Assembly: GCA_003221635.1 (NCBI GenBank)
Contig: QHSR01000134.1
Span: 1 to 37,132 of the forward strand
Origin: Candidatus Rokuibacteriota bacterium
GTDB taxonomy: Bacteria; Methylomirabilota; Methylomirabilia; Rokubacteriales; CSP1-6
Length of the DNA stretch: 37,132 nt
Direction: 5' to 3'
Below the pieces are notes generated by a model. It ran no database searches. It was given only the letters and a program-made list of their open reading frames with translations, and was not told the origin of the DNA. Positions 8,140-26,284 of the stretch are shown here, piece by piece. Within the stretch, counting starts at the first letter, position 1. Every line of letters begins with the position of its first letter. Position numbers and translations under genes: made by a program.

Positions 8140-10636
8140 AGCGGCAGCACCACGCGGAACACGCTGCCCTTGCCGGGCGCCGAGCGGACCTCGATCCGGC
8201 CGCCGTGGTCGGTCACGATGCCCTGGGCGATCGCGAGCCCGAGCCCCGTCCCCTGCCCGGGTGGCTTGGTGGTGAAGAAGGGATCGAAGATACGAGAGAG
8301 GTTCTCCTCCGGAATGCCGGGCCCCTCGTCCTCGAGCTCGATCTCGATCTCGCCGCGAACCAGGCGGGACCGAATCGTCAGGGTCCCCCGCCCGTCCATC
8401 GCCTCGAGCGCGTTGGACGCGAGCCCGAGGCACACCTGGCGCAGCTGGCCCTCGTTCGCGGCGAGCGGTGGCAGCGCGGGATCGAGCTCGGTCGTCACGC
8501 GGCTGGCGGCGAACCGCGACTGTCGCGCCAGAAGCTCGACAGCCTTCAGGACGACCCCGTTCAGGTCGGTCGGGTCGCGCCGGCTCCCGGGATCACGCAC
8601 GAACTGGAGCAGGCTCCCGGTGATCTCCTTGCAGCGGTAGGCCTCCTCCTCGATGAGGCCGAGGTAGTGGCGAAAGTCATCGGCCGCCGCGCTCGTGGCG
8701 GAGTCGCCGTGCCCCAGTCGTCCCTGAAGCGATTCGGCGCACCCGGCGATCGTCGCCAGCGGATTATTCAGCTCGTGTGCGACGCCGGCGGCGAGCCGGC
8801 CGGCCGTCGTGAGCCGCTCCGTGAGGAGCATCTGGCGCTCGAGCCCCTTTGCGCGCGTGACGTCCTCCACCAGGAGCACCGCGTGCGCGGCTCGATCGCT
8901 CGCCGACTCGACCGGCGCGGCCGTGAGCCGGAAGATCTTCGCATCGCCGGCGACGATCATCTCTTCCTCGATCGAGCCGACGTGCCGGCTGCGGAACGCC
9001 TCGCGGAGGAGCTCCTGTACGAGCGCGACCCGGTCGTCCGGCAGGAACCGTGCGAGCGGGACGCCGGCGTCCGCGCCGCATGACAGCGCGCGGGCGCCGG
9101 CACGGTTGACCCGGACCACGTTGAGGTCCGCGTCGAGCACGAACACCCCGAGCGGGAGCGTCTCCAGTACCACCTCGACGAACCGCTTCTGCGTGGCGAG
9201 CTCGCGAGTGCGAGCGCGATCGCCGCCTGGTCCGCCAGCGCCACCAGCAGCTCCTCCTCGTGCGCCGAGAAGTCGTGCACGTCGTGCCGCAAGACGCTGA
9301 GCGCGCCGATCGCATGGTCGCCGATGAGCAACGGCACCACCAGCATCGAGCGGAAGCCGCTGGTGCGCGCGAGGTGAGGATATTTCGCGCGCGCGTCGGC
9401 CCAGAGGTCGCGGCTCTGCATCGGACGTCGCTGCTGCACCGCGCGTCCGGTGACCCCCTCTCCCGGACGCAATCGAACGGTCGCCACCGTCGCCGGCGGC
9501 ATGTCGAGGCTCGCCGCCATCACCAGCTCGTCCGTCGCGGGGTCGATCGTCAACAGGCCGCACGAGTCGACGCCGAGGATGCCCCGCGCCCCCTCCAGGA
9601 GCACCTGGATCGTCCGGCCGACATCCAGGCTCGCCGTGACCGCCCGGCCCGCCTCGAGGAGCGCGCGGGTCTCGCGCGCGCCCCGGACGCCCCCTTCGGC
9701 GAGGCGCGACCGCTCGATCGCCAGCGCCAGGGGGCGCGCGAGCTCGGTGACCACATCGAGGTCGGTGTCGTCGAAAGCTCCGGGGCGCAAAGCCGCGAGC
9801 GTGACCGCGCCGAGCACGGTGCCGCCCGCTGCCAGGGGGACGAGCGCCACCGTCCGGGAGCCGCCGGCGGCCAGCACGCGGTGGCTCGCCTCGGGCACCG
9901 CGTCGCGCTCGAGGTCGTCGACCCGCACCCGGGAGCCAGCGGCCACGACGCGCGCGAGCAGCGTCCCCTCCAGCGCCATCCACGTACCGCGCGACGGGGA
10001 CGCCGGAAGCCCGCGCGCCGGCAAGTCGATGAGCTCGAACTCGCCGCGCACGGCGTCGAGCAGCGACACGCTGATCGAGTCGAACCGCACGAGCTTCGCC
10101 GCGCCCTCGGCGAACGCGGCGAATACCTCGTCGAGCGTATGGCGCGACGCGAGCAGCCCCGTGATCCCATTCAGCACGGCGGCGCGCCGCGCCAGCCGGT
10201 CACGCGCGCACCGGCGCTCGATGGTCGTCCCGAGCTCGCGCGCCAGGCTCGCCGGCAGCGCCGCCGCCGTCAGGCTTCCGCTCCGACCGAGCAGGACCAG
10301 TTCGCCGACGGGCCGGCCCGGCACGCCGAGCGGCGTTCTCAGAAGCGCCGCCGTCCGGCTCCGGGACGCGCCCGGCGGCACGACCCGCGCAACCCGCGCG
10401 CCGCGCGCCGGTGTCGTGGCAATCGTCGTCAGCCAGCGCCGGAGACTCACGGACGTGCGTCCGGTACCGGCCGTGACGACGATGGGCTCCTGGTCGCGCG
10501 GCCGGACTGCGACCGCGCCGGCCGTGGCGCCGGTCAGGTCCACCAGGCGGCGCAGGGTCTGGGCGAGCCCCTCCGTCACGGACGGGGCGACGGAGATCGG
10601 CGCCGGCAGGTCGTCGAACGCTCGCCCCCTCTTCAT
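8136..10636 (-). CDS. GAF-GAF-PAS sensor histidine kinase, frameshifted near 9205
   Basis: Two-component sensor that phosphorylates the downstream sigma-54 regulator. From the ATG at 10636 one frame encodes two GAF domains, the second ending at VALADQAAIALA. A different frame then encodes a linker (RELATQKRFVEVVLETLPLG), a PAS domain, HisKA with the phospho-His in AGVAHELNNPLATI, and HATPase_c with SNALEAM, DEGPGIPEEN and GTGLGLAI. The join near 9195-9215 needs one added base (or two removed); bridged length is about 833 residues. No membrane segment is visible, so it probably senses a cytoplasmic ligand. The ATG overlaps the deacylase stop (ATGA). Sequencing error or true mutation cannot be told apart from this sequence alone. 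Confidence 0.85.
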
Positions 10637-14237: not shown

Positions 14238-14963
14238 CTATCCGTGCACGGTCGTCCGGGCGGGCTTCCTCCGGTAGGCGCAGTCCGGCATCCAGCACCG
14301 CGCGCACTGGCTGAAGTAGTGGTCGACCTTCGCGCCGGCGCCGGCCGCGGCGATCAGCGAAATGGACTTCACGGGGGTCATGAAACACGCCTCGTTGAGG
14401 CTGACACCGATCGCGTCACCCGGGCACACGTCGAACAGCCGCCGCTGCTGAGCCACGTCCCACCGGCCGTAGCCGGGGCTCACCCGATTCGTGACCGGCA
14501 AACCGAGCGGGATCGCCTCCTGGCAGAAGACGTCGTTGACGTACTCGGCCAGGCTCTCGACGGCTCCCGACCCCACGCTGTCGAGCATCGCGGCGAGCGG
14601 CAACTCACGCGCCTCCCACAGCTCGCCGACGCGCCGCTCGAGCCCGTCGCCGATCGTGCACACGGCGGCCGCCACCCATTCGACCGGACCCCACAGGCGG
14701 CCGACGTCCGGGATCGTCAAGGTAACGCCGCCGGCGTCGATCGTGTCGGCGCCCTGCCGCGTGACCGCCAGCCACCGGACGACGGCGCGCGGCGTGATGA
14801 GGCCCCGCCCCAGGGCGAGCGCGTCATCGAAGAGCGCCAGGACCTCGGGGCCCGGGGTGTCGACGGACTTCTTGTATCCCTGGAAGCGGAGCACCTCGTC
14901 GGGGTCGATCGCCAGCGGGAGCGCGGTGAGGACTCGCGGCGCCGGGGAAAGCCGCGCGGTCAC
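14238..14963 (-). CDS. MetH-type vitamin B12-dependent methionine synthase activation-domain protein
   Basis: Stand-alone homologue of the C-terminal reactivation domain of cobalamin-dependent methionine synthase, which binds S-adenosylmethionine and re-methylates oxidised cobalamin. The 241-residue protein carries the domain hallmark RVSPGYGRWDVAQQ and WVAAAVCTIGDGLE. Near the C-terminus is a cysteine cluster, SQCARCWMPDCAYRR (CxxC-x4-C), not found in full-length MetH but seen in separate activation-type proteins, possibly an Fe-S or metal site. The GTG at 14963 overlaps the homocysteine methyltransferase stop (GTGA). Its neighbours make it the likely repair partner of the corrinoid protein two genes upstream. 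Confidence 0.85.
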   Translation of the reverse strand: MTARLSPAPRVLTALPLAIDPDEVLRFQGYKKSVDTPGPEVLALFDDALALGRGLITPRAVVRWLAVTRQGADTIDAGGVTLTIPDVGRLWGPVEWVAAAVCTIGDGLERRVGELWEARELPLAAMLDSVGSGAVESLAEYVNDVFCQEAIPLGLPVTNRVSPGYGRWDVAQQRRLFDVCPGDAIGVSLNEACFMTPVKSISLIAAAGAGAKVDHYFSQCARCWMPDCAYRRKPARTTVHG

Positions 14964-15880
14964 TTCCGGGGGCGTCGTCGGCTCACGATCTCGGCGATCC
15001 GGCGGATGTGCTCCGGGTTGGAGCCGCAGCAGGCGCCCACGATGTTGCAGCCGACGTCGAGGAGCGCGGGGTAGTCGCGCGCCATCGCCTCGGGGCCGAG
15101 CTCGTACGTCACGGTGTCGCCGGTCGTGATGGGAAGCCCGGCGTTCGGATAGGCGACGAGCGGCGCGTCGGTGGCCTGTCGCATCTCTCTGATGATCACG
15201 ATCGCCCGGTCCGGGCCGCGGCCGCAGTTCATGCCGACCACATCGGCGCCGGCCGCGACGAGATTCTTCGCGACCTCCGCCGGGCTCTCGCCCCACATCG
15301 TGCGGTCACGATCGTGGATCTCCTCGTACTGGAAGAACATGGTGGCCATCACGGGCAGGTCGGCCACCGCCTTGCAGGCGCGGACCGCGGCGGTGCATTC
15401 TTGCGGGAACATCATGGTCTCGACCGCGAAGAGATCCACCCCGCCCTCGGCCAGCGCCTCCGCCTGCTCCCGGAACGTGTCGAGGTACTCCTCGTCGGTG
15501 ACGCCCTCGTCGAGGGCGTAGTCGACCGGCAGGCGGCTGGTCGGCCCGATCGACCCCGCGATGTACCCGGACTCCGGCGCCGCCGCCCGCGCCAGCCGGG
15601 CGCCCTTATCGTTCAGCTCGCGCGTGCGGTCACCGATCTTGTACTCGTTGAGCTTGAGTCGCGTGCCGCCGAACGTGTTGGTCTCGACGATCTGACTGCC
15701 GGCGTCGAAATATCCCGCGTGGACGCCCCGCACCACGTCGGCGTGGGTGTCGTTCCAGAGCTCGGGGCAGGCGCCGTTCGCGAGCCCGGCGGCGAACAGC
15801 ATCGTCCCGTAGCCGCCGTCGAACACGAGCGTTTCGCCGCGGCGGATCCGCTCGACGACCTCCCATCCACGCGCCCTCAC
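14960..15880 (-). CDS. Homocysteine S-methyltransferase family protein
   Basis: TIM-barrel methyltransferase homologous to the Hcy domain of MetH and to BHMT; it moves a methyl group onto homocysteine or another thiol. The 306-residue protein opens with LVFDGGYGTMLFAAGL, contains VETNTFGGTRLKLNEY, and has the three zinc Cys of the family: Cys219 in GMNCGRGP and Cys284-Cys285 in GACCGSNPEHI. The GTG start at 15880 overlaps the corrinoid-protein stop. There is no fused folate or cobalamin domain, so the methyl donor is presumably the corrinoid protein encoded just upstream. The acceptor is not proven by sequence. Confidence 0.9.
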   Translation of the reverse strand: MRARGWEVVERIRRGETLVFDGGYGTMLFAAGLANGACPELWNDTHADVVRGVHAGYFDAGSQIVETNTFGGTRLKLNEYKIGDRTRELNDKGARLARAAAPESGYIAGSIGPTSRLPVDYALDEGVTDEEYLDTFREQAEALAEGGVDLFAVETMMFPQECTAAVRACKAVADLPVMATMFFQYEEIHDRDRTMWGESPAEVAKNLVAAGADVVGMNCGRGPDRAIVIIREMRQATDAPLVAYPNAGLPITTGDTVTYELGPEAMARDYPALLDVGCNIVGACCGSNPEHIRRIAEIVSRRRPRK

Positions 15881-16542
15881 GGGGCGACCTCGGCCTTGAC
15901 GAGGGCTTTGGCCTTGACGACGGCCAGCGTGGAGTCCCTCGCGTACCCGTCGGCGCCGATCTCGTCGGCGAAGGCCTGGCTCACCGGCGCCCCGCCGACC
16001 ATGACCTTGACGCGCTCGCGCAGCCCGGCCTTGATCAGCGCATCGATCGTGCGCTTCATCGCGGGCATGGTGGTGGTCATCAGCGCCGAGATCCCGACGA
16101 TGTTCGCCTGGTGCTCGTCGACCGCCTTGACGAACACCTCGGGCGCGACGTCACGCCCGAGGTTCACGACCTTGAACCCGGCGCCCTCGAGCATCATCGC
16201 GACGAGATTCTTGCCGATGTCGTGCAGATCGCCCTGCGCGGTGCCGATGACGACGATCCCGAGGTAGTCGCCGCCGCGGGCGGATGCGGTGATGAGCGGC
16301 TTCAGCAGATCGAGCCCGGCGTACATGGCGCGCGCCGAGAGCAAGACTTGAGGGACGTAGTACTCGTTGCGACGGAATTTCTCGCCGACGACGTCCATGC
16401 CGGGAATGAGCCCCTTGAAGATGAGCACCTTCGGGTCGAGCGACAGGTCGAGGCCCTCGCGCGTCTTGCGGGCGACGGTGTCCTTGTCGCCCAGGATGAG
16501 AGCCCGGGCCATCGTCGGGTAGTCGAAGGTGTCGGCGCTCAC
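15877..16542 (-). CDS. Corrinoid (methyl-cobalamin carrier) protein, MtaC/MtbC/MetH-like
   Basis: Carries a cobalamin cofactor that shuttles methyl groups between methyltransferases. The 221-residue protein has the two expected domains: a helical cap (about 1-88; LIPGMDVVGEKFRRNEYYVPQ) and a Rossmann-like B12 domain (about 92-215) with the base-off signature D105-x-H107-x2-G110 in GDLHDIGKNL, where His107 would ligate cobalt, then VVNLGRDVAPE, GISALMTTTMPAM and GGAPVSQ. It is the first gene of a three-gene operon with a GTG start at 16542 and no clear ribosome-binding site; a perfect inverted repeat ends six bases upstream. Confidence 0.93.
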   Translation of the reverse strand: MSADTFDYPTMARALILGDKDTVARKTREGLDLSLDPKVLIFKGLIPGMDVVGEKFRRNEYYVPQVLLSARAMYAGLDLLKPLITASARGGDYLGIVVIGTAQGDLHDIGKNLVAMMLEGAGFKVVNLGRDVAPEVFVKAVDEHQANIVGISALMTTTMPAMKRTIDALIKAGLRERVKVMVGGAPVSQAFADEIGADGYARDSTLAVVKAKALVKAEVAP

Positions 16543-16779: not shown

Positions 16780-17313
16780 GTGACGATCGCCAGCATCGAT
16801 CCGGTGATCGGCGCCCTGCGCGCCGGAGTCTTCAACAACGCGCTCTGGCCCGACTTCAGCAAGATCCCCCACCCCGACGTTCCTGTCGTCAAGTATCGCG
16901 CACTGATCGAAGACGTCGAGCAGCGCGTCGGCGACCTCTGGGTCACGCCCGTCGCCGTCAACCACACGGTGCCGACCGCCGGCTTCATCGTGCACGACGG
17001 CTCGACCGGCGTCGTCTACTCGGGCGACACGGGACCGACCGAGGCGCTCTGGCAGGCCGCCCGTGGCCTCCGCGGCCTGCGCGCGGTCATCGTCGAGTGC
17101 GCGTTCCCGAACCGGCTCGGCCCGCTCGCGCAGGTCGCCAAGCACATGACGCCCGCGCTCATCCAGCGCGAGCTCGACAAGCTCCCGCCGGACGTCCCCG
17201 TGTGGATCTTCCACGTCAAGCCGCAATTCCACGAGGAAGTGGCCGAGGAGCTGGTGCGGATCGGCGGCGCCCGCGTGTCCATCCTCGAGCAGGACCGCAC
17301 CTACTCGATCTAG
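16780..17313 (+). pseudogene. 5'-truncated metallo-beta-lactamase fold / class II cyclic-nucleotide phosphodiesterase-like gene
   Basis: The plus frame from about 16780 resembles the C-terminal two thirds of the MBL-fold class II phosphodiesterase (CpdP-like) family: FNNALWPDFSKIP, PVAVNHTVPTAGFIV, VYSGDTGPTEALW, VIVECAFPNR and WIFHVKPQFHEEV. These supply the later metal ligands. The N-terminal third, with the essential HxHxDH motif, is absent; upstream codons are antisense to the PilZ remnant. A chance GTG at 16780 could start a 177-residue product, but it would lack the first metal site. The stop at 17311-17313 overlaps that of the convergent ABC gene. Confidence 0.6.
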
Positions 17314-18428
17314 TCTCGGCGCGTGCGTCGTGGGGCGGCGGGCACCATCACGACGGTTTCGCTCGACATTTCGACGCGCACCCGGTCGCCGAGGCGAAAC
17401 ATGCGAGCCTCGCCCACTGCCGGCAGCTCGACGCGCAGCGGCACACTGGTGCCGATGTCGACCTCGTACAGGTGGCGGGCGCCCTCGAAGACGCGCAACG
17501 CGACGCGTCCGGGGATGCCCGGACCCCGGGCCATGGCCGCCTCGGTCATCGCGAGCGTCTCCGGCCGCAGGACCAGCAGCCCACGGTCGCCCAGCCGGTA
17601 GGCGACGCTGCCGACGACGGGCACGCGGTCGCCCCGCTCCGTCTCCACGACGACGCCGAGGTCGCGAACCTCGACCACGTGCACCGGGAGAAAGCTCGCC
17701 GGTCCGAGCGCCTCGGCGACGGCCCGGCTTTGCGGCTGGTGGTAGAGCTCGGCCGGCTCGCCCACCTGCAGCACGCGACCGCCGTCGATGACCGCGAGCC
17801 GGTCGGAGAGCGCCAGCGCGTCCGCGGCGTTCCGCGTCGCATGCACCGTCGTCACCGCCAGGTCGCGATGCAGCTTCGTCAGCTCGAGCCGGAGCATCTT
17901 GCGCGCGGTCGGGTCGAGGTTGGCCAGCGGCTCGTCCAGCAGGAGCACCCGGGGCTCCACCGCGAGCGCGCGTGCGAGCGCGAGGCGGCGGCGCTGCTCG
18001 AGGGTCAGCTTCTCGGGCCGGAGCGTCTCGGCGCCCGCGAGCTCGAGCCGGCCCAGCACGGTCCCGACGCGGCGCTCGATCTCCTCCCTCGCCATGCGCT
18101 GCTGACGGAGACCGTAGGCGACATGCTCCCGCACGCTGAGGTGCGGCCAGAGCGCGCCGTCCTGAAAGACGTACCCGACGCCGCGCAGGCGCGGAGGCAC
18201 GGCGGAGATGTCCTGGTCGTCGACGAGGACCCGCCCGCGCGTGATGGGCAGAAAGCCGGCGATCGCGCGCAGGACGTCGGACTTGCCCGATTTCGGCGGC
18301 CCGAGGAACGTGAAGAACTCCCCGTACCGAATGTGCACCGCGAGCCCGCGCACGCCCGGGGCCACGCCCCCCCGGGTGTCGAGCTCGTCGAGCCGGATGT
18401 CGACGAGCGGCCGGGCGGCAGTGCTCAC
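17310..18428 (-). CDS. ABC transporter ATP-binding protein (PotA/FbpC/MalK-type, with TOBE domain)
   Basis: Cytoplasmic ATPase subunit of an importer of the polyamine/iron/sugar class, 372 residues. Visible are Walker A GPPKSGKSD, the Q-loop YVFQDGALWPHLSV, Walker B VLLLDEPLANLDP, the switch His in TTVHATRNAADAL, and a C-terminal TOBE-like region (about 255-365). The signature motif is degenerate: LTLEQRRRLALARAL instead of LSGGQ. No permease or binding-protein gene is next to it; the GTG start overlaps the stop of an MFS gene (GTGA), which is unusual. It may energise permeases encoded elsewhere. The substrate is unknown. Confidence 0.9.
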   Translation of the reverse strand: MSTAARPLVDIRLDELDTRGGVAPGVRGLAVHIRYGEFFTFLGPPKSGKSDVLRAIAGFLPITRGRVLVDDQDISAVPPRLRGVGYVFQDGALWPHLSVREHVAYGLRQQRMAREEIERRVGTVLGRLELAGAETLRPEKLTLEQRRRLALARALAVEPRVLLLDEPLANLDPTARKMLRLELTKLHRDLAVTTVHATRNAADALALSDRLAVIDGGRVLQVGEPAELYHQPQSRAVAEALGPASFLPVHVVEVRDLGVVVETERGDRVPVVGSVAYRLGDRGLLVLRPETLAMTEAAMARGPGIPGRVALRVFEGARHLYEVDIGTSVPLRVELPAVGEARMFRLGDRVRVEMSSETVVMVPAAPRRTRRD

Positions 18429-19573
18429 GCTCGCGTCCCGGCCTCGCGCGTCCGGACGAGCGGCACACAGGCGAGTCCGATCGCCGCCAGCAGGCCGTAC
18501 AGGACGCCGGGCGAGGTCCACGCCAGCAAGGTGGTCGCCACGACCGGTCCGACAAACCCGGCGCCGATGCGCGCCGAGTTGATGACGCCGACCGCCGCGC
18601 CCCCGGCGTGCTGGGCGATGCGGGCGACCACCAGGGGAAACACCGGCGCGATCGACAGCACCTGGAGGAAGCGCAAGCCGCCGTAGAGCCACACCGAGTC
18701 CGCCGTGGCGAAGGCCGCGAGACAGAGCGATGACGTCACCAGCAGAGCGGCGACCACGCGGTGCTCGGGGAAGAGCTCGCCCAGCCGCGGCACCGCCAAG
18801 GCCCCCAGGGCGGCGGCCACGCCCGAGACGAAGATCAGCATGCCGCCGACTTCGAGCGTCCGGGCCGCGTCGACGCCGAATCCCGTGAGGACGTGAGGCA
18901 GGGTCGCGGTGAAGAAAAAGACCTGAATCGACCCGCCGAGGACGATCAGCGAGACGGCCGCGATCTCGCGCGGACGAACACGCTCGTCCGTCGTGCTCGC
19001 CCGCGACGCCTGCGACGGCCGCGGCACCGCCCAGTGCACGAGCGTCGCGCAACCGAGCAGAATCGCGCCGCCGAGGACGAAGGAGCCGCGGATGCCCAGG
19101 CGGGCCGCGGCGATGGCGCCAACGAGCGGCCCGATGACCTGGCCGACCGTCGAGGCCGATTGCAGGGTCGCCACCCGCCGCCGCACGTCACCGCTCTCGG
19201 GCGTGCGTCCGGCCATGATGAACGCCAGCGTCGACGCCGCCCCCATGGCGCCGAGGAGAAGCCGGGCGAAGAAGAGCTCGGGGAGCGTGCTCGCGAGCGC
19301 CATCACGAAGAACCCGAGCCCCTGGAGCGCCTCGACCGCCACGTAGCAGGCCTTCGGATTGCCGCGAGCGGCGTACCGGCCCCAGACGGGCGCGGTGGCG
19401 ACCGTGACGAGCGAGGTGATGCCGAGGATCCAGCCCGTCCAGCGGAGCGTGGCCGCCGGATCCGCCGTGCTGATGCGCTGAATGTGGAAGGGCAGGCTCA
19501 CGAAGACGAAGGACCAGGCGAACGAGCCGAAAAACATCGACACCGGAAGGAGGTGAGGCCCGGTCAGCCTCAA
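18425..19573 (-). CDS. MFS transporter
   Basis: Inner-membrane facilitator of 382 residues with about 12 hydrophobic segments and drug-efflux-like architecture: WGRYAARGNPKACYVAVE after segment 2 (a weak form of the GRxxDRxGRR loop) and LLLGAMGAASTLAFIMAGR in segment 4, with a charged central loop around residues 190-205. Substrate unknown. The frame can begin at TTG 19573 (MRLTGPHLLPVSM) or ATG 19537; neither has a Shine-Dalgarno. It lies 27 bp after the candidate selenoprotein gene and overlaps the ABC ATPase gene, so all three are probably co-transcribed. Confidence 0.88.
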   Translation of the reverse strand: MRLTGPHLLPVSMFFGSFAWSFVFVSLPFHIQRISTADPAATLRWTGWILGITSLVTVATAPVWGRYAARGNPKACYVAVEALQGLGFFVMALASTLPELFFARLLLGAMGAASTLAFIMAGRTPESGDVRRRVATLQSASTVGQVIGPLVGAIAAARLGIRGSFVLGGAILLGCATLVHWAVPRPSQASRASTTDERVRPREIAAVSLIVLGGSIQVFFFTATLPHVLTGFGVDAARTLEVGGMLIFVSGVAAALGALAVPRLGELFPEHRVVAALLVTSSLCLAAFATADSVWLYGGLRFLQVLSIAPVFPLVVARIAQHAGGAAVGVINSARIGAGFVGPVVATTLLAWTSPGVLYGLLAAIGLACVPLVRTREAGTRA

Positions 19574-19600: not shown

Positions 19601-20152
19601 TCATTCGCGAGACTTGAGCACGCAGAACCCCTGCGCCTCGATGCCGAGCGCGACGTTGAACTTCGAGCGGAAGTTCTCGAGGGCCACGGCGGCGGTCAAC
19701 TCGACGATCTGGGCCTCGGCGAAGTGCACGCGCACCCGTGCGAACAGCTGGTCGGTGACCTTCCGATCCGTGATCGTCATCGCTTCCGCGTACTCCAAAG
19801 CCGCCTTCTCGCTCTCGCCGAAGAGCTGGCTGGTGGCGGCGCCGGCGACCGCGGCGATCTTCGCCTCCGACGCCCCCGCCTGCATCCCACGGGATGCATT
19901 GATGTCGATTCAGAAGGGGCACCCGTTGATCAGCGCGACGCGCAGGTAGACGAGCGCGAGCAGCTCGGGCGGCAGCAGGCCCGATCGCTCGACGGCGGTC
20001 GAGAGCTGCTTGGCGGCTCGCATGATCCCGGGCGTGTGCGCCTGGATCTTGGTGGTGTTCAGGACGAAGCCGAAGGCGTCGGTCTCCTTCGCGAACGTCT
20101 CCTTCAGGACGGGATCACTGCCGGGATCGCCGATCTCTCTCACGCGTGGCAT
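19601..20152 (-). CDS. AhpD-like / carboxymuconolactone decarboxylase family protein, candidate selenoprotein (CPFU)
   Basis: AhpD-fold proteins are small helical thiol peroxidases or reductases with a CxxC active site. From ATG 20152 the frame runs 80 codons to INGCPF, meets TGA at 19912-19910, and continues in the same frame for 102 codons (IDINASRG, AGASEAKIAAVAG) to a TGA at 19603. The first TGA stands exactly at the second redox Cys, giving C78-P-F-U81 in a 183-residue protein of normal family length with no other defect. A hairpin suited to SECIS begins 11 nt downstream. Either half alone would be a non-functional fragment. The alternative, a nonsense mutation of TGC or TGT, is less likely given that placement. 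No Shine-Dalgarno is seen. It lies 25 bp after the M28 gene. Confidence 0.8.
19881..19898 (-). promoter_or_regulatory. Candidate bacterial SECIS element
   Basis: In the mRNA sense, TGCATCC-CGTG-GGATGCA forms a perfect 7-bp stem with a tetraloop containing GU (8 bp if the last C-G pair closes). It starts 11 nt after the in-frame TGA. The minimal E. coli fdhF element also sits 11 nt downstream and needs G and U in its loop for SelB contact. The bulged U of the E. coli stem is not evident. Confidence 0.6.
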
Positions 20153-20177: not shown

Positions 20178-21092
20178 TCAGGGCCGCGCTCCGCGTGAGC
20201 GAGTCAGGGCGTGCTCGATCGCGGGCAGGGCGTCGAGCAGCACGTTGCCGACAATCTCGAGACTCCGCGCCGACACCTTGTCGACCGTGTCCCCCGCCGT
20301 ATGCCACGGTGGGTAGTCGAAGTCGATCAGAAGCGTCGCCGGCACTCCCAGGCGCATGAACGGCGCATGGTCGTCCTCGACGGCGAGCGTGTCGGCGAGG
20401 AAGTGGACGTTGTAGCCGAGCCGCGCCGCGCTGGTCCAGATGACGTCGGTCAGCCAGGGGGTGGACGAGACCTCCCGCCGGATGCCCAGATCCCGGTCGC
20501 CGATCATATCGGCCACGATCACGGCGCGCGGCAGCCGTCGCGACTTGCCCAGCTCGATCGCCATCCGCCGCGATCCGTAGAGGCTGTCGGCCGCGGTCCA
20601 CGCCTCGCGAGCTTCCTCGCCGTCGAACCACACGATCCAATAGGTGTACTCGCGCGGTCGCTCGCGGAGCCGGCGCGCCAGCTCGATCAGGAGCGCGGTG
20701 CTCGAGCCGCCGTCGTTCGCGCCCACGAACGCAAACTCGCGGAACCACTTCGTATCGTAGTGCCCCCCGATGAGGATGACGTCTTGACGGCGGCCCGGGA
20801 GCACCGCGACGACGTTGGCCATCGGGAGCCGTCCGTGGGGGGTGTCGGCGTCGAACGGCTCCACCCGCGTCGCGATCCCGGCCGACCGAAGCTCGCCGAC
20901 GACGTACTGACGCGCGCGGACGCCCGCCGCCGACCCGGCCGGACGAGGGCCGATGGCCACGAGCCGCTCGACGTGGCGCAGAGCGGCGGCGCCGTTGAAC
21001 GACGACCCGGGGCGCGTCTGCGGCGCGCCCAGCGATGCGAGCCCGGCCACCAGGCAGGTGACGAGCGCCAGGCCGGCGCCAACCCGTCTCAT
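20178..21092 (-). CDS. Exported M28-family protein, glutaminyl-peptide cyclotransferase-like
   Basis: Zinc-dependent enzyme of the M28 fold, 304 residues, with an N-terminal signal sequence (MRRVGAGLALVTCLVAGLAS) pointing to export. Motifs follow the animal-type glutaminyl cyclases: GGHYDTK (His111), GANDGGSS (Asp127), WFDGEEAREAW followed by ADSLYGSRRMA, DMIGD, and PWHTAGDT (His264). DSLYGS after DGEEA is a hallmark of that branch, so conversion of N-terminal Gln to pyroglutamate is more likely than aminopeptidase activity, though not proven. The ATG at 21092 overlaps the methyltransferase stop (ATGA). The open frame upstream of it has no homology. Confidence 0.88.
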   Translation of the reverse strand: MRRVGAGLALVTCLVAGLASLGAPQTRPGSSFNGAAALRHVERLVAIGPRPAGSAAGVRARQYVVGELRSAGIATRVEPFDADTPHGRLPMANVVAVLPGRRQDVILIGGHYDTKWFREFAFVGANDGGSSTALLIELARRLRERPREYTYWIVWFDGEEAREAWTAADSLYGSRRMAIELGKSRRLPRAVIVADMIGDRDLGIRREVSSTPWLTDVIWTSAARLGYNVHFLADTLAVEDDHAPFMRLGVPATLLIDFDYPPWHTAGDTVDKVSARSLEIVGNVLLDALPAIEHALTRSRGARP

Positions 21093-21958
21093 GCCGGTTT
21101 CGTCCCGACGGCGCCGTAGTAGTTCAGCGTCAGCACGAAGGCGCCCTGCGCCACGACCTCCGTGAGCCCGTCGAGCCACCGCGCGGCCGTCGTCCCGTTC
21201 ACGATGGCGAAGCTGACCGCCCGCTCGGCGCGCCGCTCGAGGAAGGTCTTGGTCCACGGCTCGAGCGTCGTGTCCTGGTAGACGTCCGTCAGCAGGCGGA
21301 CGTCGTCGAGGCCGGCGGCGCGGAGCAAGCCCGGGAGCCGGCGACCGCTGTGCGGCTCCGGATAGATGTGAGCGGCGACGCCGTGCATGATGCGATCCGT
21401 CAGCTCGTGGTCGGGATGCGTGAGCGCGACCACGCCGAAGTCCTGATCCTGCACGCCGACGTGCCCGCCCGGCCGCGTCACTCGAGCCATCTCGCGCACG
21501 ACCCGCAGCGGATCGGCGACGTGCAGAAGGACCGTGATGGCGAGCGCCGCGTCGAAGCGGCTCGCGGCGAACGGCAGGCGCGCGCCGTCACCGACGCGCA
21601 GCGCCACCCGGGCGCGGCCCGCCGCCTCGCGACAGAGCCGGCGGGCCCGGTCCAGGAGGAGCCGGCTGGAGTCGATGCCCACGACTTCGCCCCGTCGGCC
21701 GACGAGCGCGACGAGGTCCCGGACGACGACACCCGTGCCGCAGCCGACCTCGAGCACGTGATCCCCCGCCCTGACGGGGACGAACCTCAGGAAGCGCCGC
21801 CGCAGCCGGGCCTGCGCCGGTGTCCGGCCGCGCGCCTCGAGGCCCGCCGCCATCTGCTCGAGGTTCGTCTGAGCATCGGCGTCGCGCCACGGATCGAGGT
21901 GACGGCGGGTCGGGCGCGGGTGGCCCCGCGCCGTCACGGCCGAGCGGCGAAATCTCAC
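21089..21958 (-). CDS. Class I SAM-dependent methyltransferase
   Basis: A 289-residue methyltransferase of the UbiE/Methyltransf_11 type. Motif I LEVGCGTGVVVRDL binds SAM, GEVVGIDSS is motif II, LRVGDGARLPFAASRFDAALAI covers post II and motif IV, and VTRPGGHVGVQDQD is motif VI. The substrate is not identifiable; the C-terminal third (after about residue 200) is the acceptor-binding part. GTG 21958, ten bases after the YHS gene stop, is the likely start; GTG 21937 is another. It sits between a YHS protein and a glutaminyl-cyclase-like protein with overlaps, so it is co-expressed with them. Confidence 0.85.
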   Translation of the reverse strand: MRFRRSAVTARGHPRPTRRHLDPWRDADAQTNLEQMAAGLEARGRTPAQARLRRRFLRFVPVRAGDHVLEVGCGTGVVVRDLVALVGRRGEVVGIDSSRLLLDRARRLCREAAGRARVALRVGDGARLPFAASRFDAALAITVLLHVADPLRVVREMARVTRPGGHVGVQDQDFGVVALTHPDHELTDRIMHGVAAHIYPEPHSGRRLPGLLRAAGLDDVRLLTDVYQDTTLEPWTKTFLERRAERAVSFAIVNGTTAARWLDGLTEVVAQGAFVLTLNYYGAVGTKPA

Positions 21959-21968
21959 GCGATGCGGG

Positions 21969-22205
21969 TCAGCCGCCGGTGTCGAGGCGGGCGCACTGCT
22001 CGCTGCAGAAGTACCGCACCCCGCCGGCATCGATCCGGCGGACGGCACGCGACTTCACGATGTAGGTCTGGCATACCGGATCCTTGACGAGCTCGTCGGG
22101 AAGCGCACGGGGCACTCGGCGTGCCGGCAGCTGGATCCGGCGCAGCGCCGGGAGCAGCAACACGACCGCAAGGACCACGAACAGGAGAATCGGAAGAAGC
22201 CGCAT
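21969..22205 (-). CDS. Small membrane-anchored YHS-like protein
   Basis: A 78-residue protein with one N-terminal membrane segment (RLLPILLFVVLAVVLLLPAL) and a short YHS-type metal-binding domain: DPVCQTYI followed by GGVRYFCSEQCARL. YHS domains are linked to metal handling and often sit in membrane or redox proteins. The orientation suggests the YHS part faces the cytoplasm or periplasm depending on insertion; sequence does not decide. It starts six bases after the 76-aa gene and is followed ten bases later by the methyltransferase gene. Confidence 0.8.
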   Translation of the reverse strand: MRLLPILLFVVLAVVLLLPALRRIQLPARRVPRALPDELVKDPVCQTYIVKSRAVRRIDAGGVRYFCSEQCARLDTGG

Positions 22206-23021: not shown

Positions 23022-24065
23022 TCATGACAGGGCCTGGCCGAGATCGTCGGTCAGGTCGTCGGGGTGCTCGAGGCCGACGGACAGCCGCAGGAGGTTGTCC
23101 GGGGTGCGCGTGCCGGCGCCCTCGATCGACGCGCGATGCTCGACGAGACTCTCCGTCCCGCCGAAGCTCGTCGCCCGCGTGAAGACGCGGAGCTTCGCGG
23201 CGACCTCCATCGCGCGCTCCCGACTTCCCCGCACCTGGACCGACACCATCCCGCCGAAGGCCGTCATCTGGCGGCGAGCAACGTCATGCGCCGGGTGCGT
23301 GGGAAGTCCCGGGTAATGGACCGCCTCGACGCGGGGATGGCCGTGCAGGAACGTGGCGACCCGGAGGGCGTTCTCGGCGTGGGCGCGCACCCGGTACGGA
23401 AGAGTCCGGATCCCGCGTCGAACGAGCCAGCAGTCGAACGGTGACGGCACGGCCCCACCCGAGGCCTGGAGCGCACGGATCCGGTCGAACAGCTCGCCGC
23501 GCATCTTGGCCACCACCGCGCCCCCGAGCACGTCGCCGTGACCACCGAGGTATTTCGTGCTGGCGTGCAGGACCAGGTCAGCGCCGAGCTTGAACGGTGA
23601 CTGGAGCACGGGCGTCGCGGTCGTGTTGTCGCAGACGTAGAACGCACCGGTCTCCCTGGCGATCGCGCCGATCGCCGCGATGTCGGTGATCTTCCACAGC
23701 GGGTTCGACGGCGTTTCCACCCAGATGAGCCGGGTCTTCGCCCTGATCGCCGCCCGCACGGCCGGGGCGTCGGTCATGTCCACGAAGGTGGTGTCGAGCC
23801 CCCACGGGGCGAAGGTCTCGCGAAGCAGTCGCGAGGTCCCGTGGTAGGCGTCGATCGGCGCGACGACGTGGTCCTCGAGGGCGGCGAGACATTCCTCCAG
23901 CGCGCTGCGGTTGGGGTTACTGTTGCGCGAGTACAGGAACCCGCGCGGGTAGGAGCCATCCGGATCACGCTCGAAGGTCGTGGACGGATGGATCGCGGGC
24001 GTCACCGCGCCGGTCCCCGGATCGACGCGCGTCCCGGAGTGGACCGCGATCGTCTCGATCCGCAT
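23022..24065 (-). CDS. Cys/Met-metabolism PLP enzyme (cystathionine gamma-synthase/lyase-like) with internal deletion
   Basis: Homologue of MetB/MetC/MGL enzymes, which make or cleave C-S bonds of cystathionine and related amino acids. Intact features: SRNSNPNR substrate loop, VETPSNPLWKI, Asp146 in YVCDNTTATP, the PLP Lys171 in STKYLGGHGD, and SFGGTESLVEHRAS. At 347 residues it is short for the family (about 375-400). Between Glu64 and Asp65 (23873/23874) the frame jumps from LEECLAALE straight to DHVVAPIDAYHG; about 26 residues normally found here, including the Gly-Met that holds the PLP phosphate, are missing. The product is probably inactive if the sequence is right. The ATG at 24065 lies 77 bp after the SDR stop. 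Confidence 0.85.
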   Translation of the reverse strand: MRIETIAVHSGTRVDPGTGAVTPAIHPSTTFERDPDGSYPRGFLYSRNSNPNRSALEECLAALEDHVVAPIDAYHGTSRLLRETFAPWGLDTTFVDMTDAPAVRAAIRAKTRLIWVETPSNPLWKITDIAAIGAIARETGAFYVCDNTTATPVLQSPFKLGADLVLHASTKYLGGHGDVLGGAVVAKMRGELFDRIRALQASGGAVPSPFDCWLVRRGIRTLPYRVRAHAENALRVATFLHGHPRVEAVHYPGLPTHPAHDVARRQMTAFGGMVSVQVRGSRERAMEVAAKLRVFTRATSFGGTESLVEHRASIEGAGTRTPDNLLRLSVGLEHPDDLTDDLGQALS

Positions 24066-24142
24066 CTCAGTCGCCTTTCTTTGGAGCGGGTGCCGTGAGC
24101 ACGGAATTGCCGAGGGTGGCCTGAGACAGGTGCACGCCGGCT

Positions 24143-24907
24143 CTAGCCGGCCGTGAAACCACCGTCGACGACGAGCTCCGCCCCGGTCATGAACGAGGAC
24201 TCGTCGCTGGCGAGGAACAGAGCGACGTAGGCGATCTCGCGCGGCTGCGCGATCCGCCCCAGCGGGATCCCGGTTTCGAACTCCTTCCGGATCGCCTCGG
24301 TGAGATACGGCGCCTGCAGGGGTGTGTCGACGATCCCGGGATGGATCACGTTGCAGCGGATCTTGTCCCGGGCGAACTGGATCGCGAGCGATTTGGTCAG
24401 CGAGATGAGGGCGCCTTTGGCGGCGGTGTATGCGTCCTGGGCCCGCGTGAAGCCGGCGAGCGCGGAGACCGAGCCCATGTTGATGATCGAGCCACCGCCG
24501 GCGCGCCGGAGGTGCGGGATGCCGTGCTTGGTCACCCAGAACACCGACTTGAGGTTGATCGCCATGACGCGGTCCCACCACCGCTCGTCGGTCTCGAGCA
24601 CGGAGCGGTCGCGATCCTTCCAGAGGACACCGGCGTTGTTGTGGAGGACGTGCAGCGCGCCGAAGCGCCGCACGCCCTCCTCGACCATCCGCAGCACGTC
24701 GGCTTCGACCGCGACGTCGCCGATGACCGCGAGCGCCTGGCCCCCGGCCCCGTCGATGCGGGCGACCGTGTCCGTGGCCGCTCCCCCGTCGAGGTCCGCC
24801 ACCACGACCCGCGCGCCTTCTTCGGAGAAGAGCAAAGCCGTCTCGCGCCCCATGCCCATTCCGGCGCCCGTGATGAGCGCGACCTTCCCGGCAAGCCGCC
24901 CGCTCAT
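24143..24907 (-). CDS. Short-chain dehydrogenase/reductase (classical SDR)
   Basis: NAD(P)-dependent oxidoreductase of 254 residues. The cofactor motif TGAGMGMG (14-21), VVVADLDG with an Asp at the end of strand 2 (favouring NAD), HNNAG, the catalytic Ser in MGSVSAL, and Tyr-x3-Lys in AYTAAKGAL are all present, as is IVDTP after the active site and the C-terminal VVDGGFTAG. The substrate is unknown; the neighbours are a glutamine-synthetase-like ligase (3 bp upstream) and a PLP enzyme, suggesting amino-acid or amine breakdown. It is distinct from fabG elsewhere in the window. Confidence 0.93.
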   Translation of the reverse strand: MSGRLAGKVALITGAGMGMGRETALLFSEEGARVVVADLDGGAATDTVARIDGAGGQALAVIGDVAVEADVLRMVEEGVRRFGALHVLHNNAGVLWKDRDRSVLETDERWWDRVMAINLKSVFWVTKHGIPHLRRAGGGSIINMGSVSALAGFTRAQDAYTAAKGALISLTKSLAIQFARDKIRCNVIHPGIVDTPLQAPYLTEAIRKEFETGIPLGRIAQPREIAYVALFLASDESSFMTGAELVVDGGFTAG

Positions 24908-24910
24908 TCG

Positions 24911-26284
24911 CTAGATCCGCTCGAAGTTGCGCGCCAGCTCCCAGTCGGTCACGACCTGGTCGAAGGCCTCTTGCTCGAGGCGCGCGGTGTGAAGATAGTG
25001 CTCGACCACCCGGTCGCCGAACGCCGCGCGGGCGACCTTCGAGCGCTCGAGCTCGGCGATCGCCTCGCGGAGGGTCTTGGGCACCTGGGGAAGCGTCGCA
25101 TCCTCGTAGGCGTTGCCCTCGTAGAGCTTCGGCGCCTTCAGCCGGCTCGCGATGCCGTAGAGCCCCGCGGCGATCGTGGCGGCGAAGGCGAGATAGGGGT
25201 TGGCGTCGGCGCCCGGGATCCGGTTCTCGACGCGGAACCCCCCGCGCTCGCCGCACAGCCGGAAGCCGCACGTCCGGTTGTCCCACCCGGCCACGATGCG
25301 CGTGGGCGCGAACGAGCCCGACTGGTAGCGCTTGTAGGAATTCACGCTCGGCGCATAGAAGTACGCGAACTCGCGCGCCAGCGCCATCTGACCCGCGAGC
25401 CACTGGCCGAACAGGGGCGTGCTGGTCGTCCGCGCGCCCCGGCCGGAGGCCGCGAACAAGGGCTTGCGCCCGCTCTTGTCCCAGAGCGAGGAGTGCAGAT
25501 GGAACGACGAGCCGGCCGCGGCCACGTCGTATTTGGCCATGAAGGTGACGGCGCAGCCCTGGAGGTGCGCGATCTCCTTGGCGCCGTGCTTGTAGAGGGC
25601 GGTGCGGTCGGCCATCTCGAGCGCCTCCGCGTAGCGCAGGTTGATCTCCTCCTGACCGCGTCCCCATTCGCCCTTCGAGGTCTCGACCGGGACATCCGCC
25701 TCCTCCATGCCGTTGCGGATCGCGCGGATCAGCGGCTCCTCTTTGGTCGTCTGCAGGATGTGATAGTCCTCGAGGTAGCTCGACGCCGGCGTGAGCTGGT
25801 GGTGGCGCTTGCGGCGCGCCTCCTCGAACGACTCCTTGAAGCAGTAGAGCTCGAGCTCGGCGGCGGTCTTGACGACGTAGCCCATCGACGCCGCGCGCTC
25901 GATCTGCCGCTTGAGGATCCACCGCGGCGCCTCCTCGATCCGCTCACCCTCCTCGGTGAAAACGTCGCAGAAGACGAGCGCGGTCTTCGGCAGCCACGGG
26001 ATGAGCCGTAGCGTCGCCAGGTCCGGGACCATCTTCATGTCGCCGTACCCGCGTTCCCAGGAGGTGAGCTTGAACCCGGGCAGCGGCGCCATCTCCATGT
26101 CGACGGTGAAGAGATAGATGCAGGCGTGGGCGCCGTCGTCCACGACGTGATCCAGGAAATAGTTGCCGACGACCCGCTTGCCCATCAGCCGGCCGAAGGT
26201 GTCGGGGAAGACGGTCAGCACGGTGTCGACGTCGCCCTTCTCGACGCGCTGCTCGAGTTGCTTGCGATCGAGCCGACCCGGCAT
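24911..26284 (-). CDS. Glutamine synthetase family protein (gamma-glutamyl-amine ligase-like)
   Basis: ATP-dependent ligase of the glutamine synthetase fold, 457 residues. Seen are AELELYCFKESFEEA, the metal and glutamate-site segment SKGEWGRGQEEINLRYAEALEMAD, SFHLHSSLWD, Arg-rich NRTCGFRLCGERGGFRVENRIPGADANPYLAF, and the C-terminal VTDWELARNFERI. That ending and the family branch resemble gamma-glutamylpolyamine or gamma-glutamylmethylamide synthetases (PuuA/GlnA3-like) rather than assimilatory GlnA. Adjacent SDR and PLP-enzyme genes support a catabolic role for an amine, by inference. It is divergent from the UMF1-type transporter, which may move its substrate. Confidence 0.9.
   Translation of the reverse strand: MPGRLDRKQLEQRVEKGDVDTVLTVFPDTFGRLMGKRVVGNYFLDHVVDDGAHACIYLFTVDMEMAPLPGFKLTSWERGYGDMKMVPDLATLRLIPWLPKTALVFCDVFTEEGERIEEAPRWILKRQIERAASMGYVVKTAAELELYCFKESFEEARRKRHHQLTPASSYLEDYHILQTTKEEPLIRAIRNGMEEADVPVETSKGEWGRGQEEINLRYAEALEMADRTALYKHGAKEIAHLQGCAVTFMAKYDVAAAGSSFHLHSSLWDKSGRKPLFAASGRGARTTSTPLFGQWLAGQMALAREFAYFYAPSVNSYKRYQSGSFAPTRIVAGWDNRTCGFRLCGERGGFRVENRIPGADANPYLAFAATIAAGLYGIASRLKAPKLYEGNAYEDATLPQVPKTLREAIAELERSKVARAAFGDRVVEHYLHTARLEQEAFDQVVTDWELARNFERI

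Follow-up and report, generated by a model that had tools for sequence, protein, structure and literature searches.

A probable selenoprotein gene of the AhpD/YciW-like type in a Rokubacteria contig and its family of paralogues

Introduction

Does a TGA codon in the middle of an AhpD-like gene mark a broken gene, or would it be read as selenocysteine (Sec)? The question is raised by a 37,132-nucleotide stretch of DNA from Candidatus Rokuibacteriota, here called the window. A first-pass annotation, made by a model from the letters of the window, had proposed a selenoprotein candidate in which a TGA replaces the second Cys of a redox CxxC motif. We examined the reading frame, its relatives, the RNA structure behind the TGA, the Sec machinery of the genome and the place of the protein among known families. 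A selenoprotein at this locus would add a subfamily from an uncultured soil lineage, and annotation that lacks a matching model would split or truncate its gene.

Results

One reading frame interrupted by a single TGA

The only break in the 183-codon frame is the TGA at codon 81, found in the context ...INGCPF-TGA-IDINASRG... (Table 1). When the joined protein was compared with Pfam, it matched the CMD family well above the cut-off of 23 bits over residues 41-124, a span that crosses the TGA. The earlier claim that both halves of an AhpD/CMD protein share one frame, split by a TGA at the second Cys of CxxC, was confirmed; the strand, which it had left unnamed, is the minus strand. The positions given for the coding sequence and the hairpin, and the 11-nt spacing from the TGA to the hairpin, were also correct.

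Table 1 Features of the predicted selenoprotein locus in the window.
Feature	Position	Strand	Remarks
CDS, AhpD/YciW-like selenoprotein (predicted)	20152-19601	minus	183 residues + stop; start ATG at 20152, terminal TGA 19603-19601; Sec at codon 81; PF02627 52.2 bits
In-frame TGA, predicted Sec codon (U in C-P-F-U)	19912-19910	minus	TGA in 81/81 sequences
TGC codon, partner Cys78 of CxxU	19921-19919	minus	Cys in 81/81 sequences
Bacterial SECIS-type hairpin, 7-bp stem TGCATCC/GGATGCA, loop CGUG	19898-19881	minus	starts 11 nt after TGA
Peptidase_M28 gene	20178..21257	minus	upstream, stop 25 nt before selenoprotein start; 23/30 Rokubacteria loci
SAM methyltransferase gene	21089..22048	minus	upstream; 21/30 Rokubacteria loci
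MFS transporter gene (PF07690)	18425..19573	minus	downstream; 10/30 Rokubacteria loci
ABC transporter ATPase (PF00005 ABC_tran + TOBE_2)	17310..18572	minus	downstream; 12/30 Rokubacteria loci

The TGA is conserved and both halves of the gene are under purifying selection

A gene caller without Sec awareness sees two short ORFs here, and the window's own assembly is of MAG grade (5.17 Mb in 335 contigs, 88.8% complete and 5.2% contaminated), as would suit a pseudogene, a nonsense mutation or a sequencing error at codon 81. We searched the contigs of species-representative genomes for relatives. A total of 154 loci were confirmed, of which the best 80 were kept and combined with the window into a set of 81 sequences. 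The 80 loci were 54-90% identical to the window; by title, 30 were from Candidatus Rokubacteria or Rokuibacteriota and 50 carried proteobacterial names, many of them Reyranella. Among the window and these best 80 of 154 loci, codon 81 was TGA and residue 78 was Cys in every sequence. Neither TAA nor TAG was ever found at codon 81, and no Cys version was seen among the 81 sequences, so that TGC or TGT in place of TGA, which the first-pass annotation had named as a finding that would speak against Sec, was not observed. The query for relatives had a Cys in place of the TGA residue, and of the six patterns used in the search, one (CPFCIDIN) demanded Cys there; since a Cys relative would score higher with a Cys query, Cys versions were favoured, if anything. 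In the alignment with homologues (PA0269 and the Cys homologues described below), it was the Cys of CxxC that fell in the column of the TGA.

Random stops elsewhere in close relatives, another outcome that had been put forward as adverse, were likewise not the pattern found. When 40 Rokubacteria-type sequences were read without gaps, 38 had no stop within codons 1-180 other than that at codon 81. The exceptions were L132, with an extra stop at codon 178, and L167, with stops at codons 155 and 179, which we put down to indels. We then computed dN/dS against the window codon by codon, as a gapless third-position count is blurred by indels. Upstream of the TGA (residues 5-79) the median was 0.27 and downstream of it (residues 96-175) 0.32, and the downstream value was below 1 in all 71 comparisons, several of which were the same contig from two collections. 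Purifying selection acts on both halves of the gene, before and after the TGA. The TGA in 81 of 81 sequences, the 38 readings free of other stops and the selection on the downstream half make a pseudogene or an error at codon 81 highly improbable.

Some loci of this set showed further peculiarities. A second, more distant paralogue was found nearby in two of them, with TGC in L075 and TGA in L083. In the latter, whose contig is titled Burkholderiales, the second AhpD-like gene has CNY-TGA and lies at about position 9900, 3.6 kb downstream of the first. Three loci (L052, L060 and L096) bear MAG titles, for example Klebsiella pneumoniae or Asaia bogorensis; their genes are 55-60% identical to that of the window and Reyranella-like, and the titles are probably wrong.

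A compact hairpin follows the TGA

Bacterial SECIS elements are characterized by a stem and a small loop with an early G, the loop lying about 16-37 nt from the UGA. The hairpin downstream of codon 81 fits this description, with its 7-bp stem and a loop 18 nt from the UGA. The 18-nt element also forms when the 42 nt that follow the TGA are folded to minimum energy (-14.5 kcal/mol). It had been described at first pass as a perfect hairpin with GU in its loop, and this was borne out, the loop being CGUG.

To assess the hairpin statistically, we took the best-scoring compact hairpin with a start 7-19 nt behind the TGA and compared it with those of 100 synonymous-codon resamplings encoding the same peptide. 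We tested 91 different orthologue sequences and 81 different paralogue sequences, each also at seven control offsets within the gene. At the TGA, P<=0.05 was reached in 59% of the orthologues and 49% of the paralogues, compared with 1-4% and 0-7%, respectively, at the control offsets; as the tested sequences are related, these percentages are not independent trials, and the orthologue set and the 95-genome paralogue set, which have contigs in common, are not independent of each other. About half of the single sequences fell below significance individually. A compact hairpin follows the TGA beyond what is expected by synonymous-codon chance. The stems were unlike in sequence from clade to clade (TGCATCC/GGATGCA, TTCCGTC/GACGGAA, TTCCAGC/GCTGGAA, TATGCCGG/CCGGCATG and CCGCTTC/GAAGCGG), and across clades they started mostly 11-13 nt after the TGA. 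Of the 172 distinct sequences, 169 had a G among the first three loop nucleotides.

The minimum free energy of the whole 42 nt gave a weak signal in the orthologues (mean z -0.42; controls -0.27 to +0.23) and a clearer one in the paralogues (mean z -1.33; controls -0.36 to -0.12). In GC-rich genes this z score tests poorly for SECIS elements, and the compact-hairpin test was used instead. An Rfam scan of the window found no family over its cut-off, and Rfam may hold no bacterial SECIS model; a permissive scan at the hairpin returned one chance match (Mnt IRES, E 4.3).

Near-cognate tRNAs can read through UGA in bacteria. The TGA could thus be passed at a low level with a near-cognate amino acid, or it could be a programmed termination that yields two separate peptides. 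Such readings are scarcely probable. They leave unexplained the hairpin with its G-containing loop in unlike sequences, the choice of TGA but never TAA or TAG in 81 of 81 sequences, and the presence of selB in all eight carrier genomes that we tested (see below).

Selenocysteine machinery in the genome

In the window's own assembly, selA (584.7 bits; cut-off 267.9) and selB (373.5 bits; cut-off 242.25) were found adjacent to each other at the start of one contig (C2). A selD gene over its cut-off is located on contig C122 (L099) and has an in-frame TGA in the context CAG-TGA-ASK, which we take to be the Cys/Sec site of SelD. With a TGA at this site, SelD itself reads as a Sec form. In addition, selB was over its cut-off in eight of eight proteobacterial genomes that we chose among the carriers of the gene.

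A tRNA-Sec over the cut-off was identified in 25 of the 30 genomes searched. The window's own assembly had none, nor did G001, G005, G016 and G028. ARAGORN, to which 11 of 20 loci were submitted, called tRNA-SeC in all 11. Within the last 115 bases of contig C210 of the window's assembly (L125), we found the first 43 bases of selC, including the UCA anticodon, 72 bases from the end. These 43 bases are the same as in a relative (G002) and are followed by unrelated DNA up to the end of the contig. In the relative, the selC locus runs on into a sequence matching bases 1-760 of C2 in reverse, and by this layout selC is expected about 740 bases past the end of C2. We read the incomplete selC as an assembly break; alternatively, selC may be disrupted in this genome, for example by an insertion. 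Of the Sec genes that the first-pass annotation had proposed to look for, selA, selB and selD are present in the genome, and selC is incomplete in the assembly, as a 43-nt 5' half. A genome devoid of Sec machinery, the remaining adverse outcome that it had named, was thus not what we found.

The frame would likewise stay open if TGA had been reassigned to Trp, Gly or Cys in this lineage. However, TGA still serves as a stop: it ends selA and seven of the eight window ORFs checked, the selenoprotein ORF included. Homologues have the second Cys of their CxxC in the column of the TGA residue, and selA, selB and selD are present in the genome, which makes reassignment improbable in the extreme.

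A predicted CxxU redox protein

Several observations argue for a selenoprotein: the conserved TGA, the hairpin, the low dN/dS before and after the TGA, the selA, selB and selD genes of the genome, and the family to which the protein belongs. Very probably, the gene encodes one intact CMD/AhpD-superfamily selenoprotein of the COG2128/YciW-like CxxU type, in which UGA81 would be decoded as Sec and Cys78-x-x-Sec81 would form a redox centre. Decoding would be carried out by SelB and tRNA-Sec, with the hairpin that starts 11 nt after the UGA as the directing signal. The most likely chemistry of the product would be selenol/thiol redox, with Sec81 attacking an oxidant or a disulfide, Cys78 closing a selenenyl-sulfide and a cellular thiol donor reopening it. 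We infer Sec insertion and a working selC in this strain, as well as the redox activity, the reductant and the substrate. Some orthologues belong, judging from the titles of their records, to named strains of Reyranella, Vineibacter and Enhydrobacter, and Sec insertion and activity could therefore be tested directly.

Place among known AhpD-like proteins

The closest NCBIfam model was NF053654 ('YciW-related (seleno)protein', GroundWater_YciW), which was matched over positions 1-175 of 179 (E 1.7e-44) at 151.7 bits, below its cut-off of 310. Ten relatives and paralogues also stayed below this cut-off, the best being L175 at 237.5. The score for TIGR01926 (peroxidase-related enzyme) was 45.9 bits, below the cut-off of 81.8, and that for TIGR00778 was 28.4 bits, just over the cut-off of 27.8. 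AhpD of M. tuberculosis and PA0269 are among the closest known systems; solved AhpD-like proteins, PA0269 (2IJC, 2O4D) among them, have a sequence-detectable relation to the window protein, with CxxC aligned to CPFU. A YciW-type protein of E. coli was 35.7% identical and has CEFC where the window protein has CPFU, with Cys instead of Sec; its locus (L278), which we take to be yciW, lies in a record without annotation at that place. The lengths also differ, as a review gives YciW 401 residues (PMC10821248), compared with 183 here.

AhpD-like COG2128/YciW selenoproteins with CxxU have been known since 2005 from the Sargasso Sea and GOS surveys and from reviews of them (PMC1088965, PMC2398784, PMC9312934, PMC13188914). 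These sources bear out the statement of the first-pass annotation that AhpD-like proteins are an established bacterial selenoprotein family. As described there, known members (COG2128/YciW, TIGR01926) likewise have the CMD/AhpD fold, CxxU with Sec in second place and a SECIS hairpin downstream. The window protein differs from them in falling below the TIGR01926 cut-off and in that none of the 81 orthologues has Cys, whereas Cys forms are in the majority in the GOS survey, which counts 299 Sec and 902 Cys sequences for AhpD-like 1 (PMC2398784). With the CMD domain-containing selenoprotein (PF02627, CxxU) of the Sargasso Sea, the window protein shares a PF02627 match over the cut-off; PF02627 is superfamily-wide, so this match does not tell the subfamily. 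Judged from all the sequence evidence, the window gene is a further member of the known COG2128/YciW-like CxxU selenoproteins, probably in a distinct subfamily.

The AhpD relay is absent and a redox role is likeliest

A relay through Glu, Cys, Tyr/His, Cys and His has been proposed for AhpD and PA0269, and the peroxidase activity of PA0269 is given as weak (PMC3141380). Where this source places the relay residues Glu36 and His55 of PA0269, the window protein has Ala66 and Asn85. Residue 66 is Ala, Pro, Ser or Asn in the orthologues, and residue 85 is Asn. The label 'AhpD-like' of the first-pass annotation therefore holds for the fold and the CxxU motif but not for the Glu/His relay of AhpD.

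Of the 132 tree rows, 16 have both Glu and His, 15 of these being TGA rows, and two changes suffice to explain the relay state on the tree. We also examined four Cys homologues (L275-L278; H1, H3, H4 and H8 of 373 matching plasmid records), which were chosen by us. All four, the E. coli YciW-type protein included, lack the relay: residue 66 is Ser in three and Leu in one, and residue 85 is Asn in two, Thr in one and Ala in one. This suggested that the relay change is a property of the YciW-like branch. The idea that Sec made the Glu/His relay dispensable was rejected, as these Cys homologues are without the relay too and 15 TGA proteins keep both residues. It had been favoured by the window's own genome, in which 20 of 22 PF02627 matches were examined and Glu and His were found in two of three CxxC proteins and none of four TGA proteins, a small sample. 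The AhpD enzyme has AhpC and a lipoyl donor as its partners; no ahpC was found among the nine other window ORFs scanned.

By the motif alone, a redox role of Cys78 and Sec81 appears likeliest. Sec81 may also be decoded as such and act neither as a peroxidase nor as a redox carrier, binding a metal(loid) or serving as another nucleophile, for example in cysteine or organosulfur metabolism. We consider this possible but rather unlikely. The missing relay of the four Cys homologues would agree with it, as would the loss of the partner Cys in one paralogue clade and the ties, by name, of some AhpD-domain selenoprotein families to arsenic methylation and arsenosugar genes. According to a review, E. 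coli becomes more sensitive to cysteine when yciW is disrupted, and the function of YciW is given there as unknown (PMC10821248). On the other hand, CxxU is a classical redox motif, and none of the seven neighbour genes traced was metal-handling by Pfam matches.

Paralogues in Rokubacteria and a clade without the partner Cys

We searched 95 genomes of the phylum for paralogues and found matches at E<=1e-15 in 57. Of the 133 matches listed, 128 loci were used; the remaining five were C-terminal fragments (three) or further pieces of loci already in use (two). L173 and L187 had no row covering codon 81, so that 126 loci were counted. Codon 81 was TGA in 122, TGC in three and TCG in one. The TGA loci were spread over 55 genomes with one to five in each, and a window-type orthologue (>=65% identity) was present in 42 genomes. 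Since a query from a Sec gene favours its own kin, this Sec share is valid for the branch and not for the CMD proteins of the phylum at large; in the window's genome, only four of 22 PF02627 matches had TGA. The TCG locus (L189, genome G062) reads C-P-C-S where its own clade has C-P-F-U, with a Cys just before the position of the Sec codon.

Residue 78 was Cys in 103 of the 122 TGA loci, Ser in 13, Ala in three, Thr in two and Val in one. The 19 loci without Cys78 form one clade with S/A/T/V-x-x-U (SH-aLRT 100, in a quick tree without bootstrap). A hairpin rich in G-C pairs is retained in all 19, for example CACGCC-GTC-GGCGTG or CGCGCC-GTC-GGCGCG. One member is from the window's own genome (L219, contig C111), and the 18 others include L202, L208, L185 and L180. 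That genome holds three of the 122 loci, namely the window gene, a gene with CRYU on contig C9 (L198) and the gene with SAYU on C111. A fourth gene, for a small AhpD-core protein with CFD-TGA, was seen on its contig C168 (L261, 1465-1806, minus strand), with a hairpin 12 nt after the TGA; it scored 27.9 for TIGR00778, just over the cut-off of 27.8, and stayed below the four other NCBIfam models that it resembled.

We regard it as somewhat likely that AhpD/YciW-like proteins have undergone a lineage-specific radiation in Rokubacteria, with nearly every member in the Sec form (122 of 126 loci), the reverse of the Cys majority in the GOS figures, and that the 19-member clade represents a single-selenol enzyme. 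The clade would offer a natural experiment on the role of Sec when CxxU is broken. The radiation, with up to five paralogues per genome, and the loss of the partner Cys are new as far as we searched: the literature, searched in partial listings, gave no report of a Rokubacteria subfamily or of a clade without the partner Cys, and Deng et al. 2026 and Haft & Tolstoy 2025 may list them. For one Methylomirabilota MAG, a review citing Deng et al. 2026 gives 63 selenoprotein genes as a possible bacterial upper bound, with a warning about co-assembly (PMC13188914).

Gene neighbourhood

The first-pass annotation had left a link to an MFS protein and an ABC ATPase downstream unexplained. Both genes are present in the window, but the link is not conserved. 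Each was found in a minority of the 30 Rokubacteria loci (Table 1), and two of the ABC matches were weak and on the upstream side; the sequence available extends 1300 nt or more upstream of the TGA in 29 of these 30 loci, and 1500 nt or more downstream in 26. In Reyranella massiliensis, where ten neighbouring ORFs were scanned, we found instead an alcohol dehydrogenase, a TctC receptor, an FAD protein and a weak LuxR-like match. A general MFS/ABC link was rejected, as the low counts and the differing neighbours in Reyranella massiliensis indicate that it is local.

On the same strand of the window as the selenoprotein gene, at 14960-16542 and 23022-25922, lie genes for a B12-binding protein, a homocysteine S-methyltransferase and a Cys/Met PLP enzyme, all within about 5 kb of it. 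The B12-binding protein and the homocysteine S-methyltransferase were found in five of the 30 Rokubacteria loci, and the Cys/Met PLP enzyme in 13.
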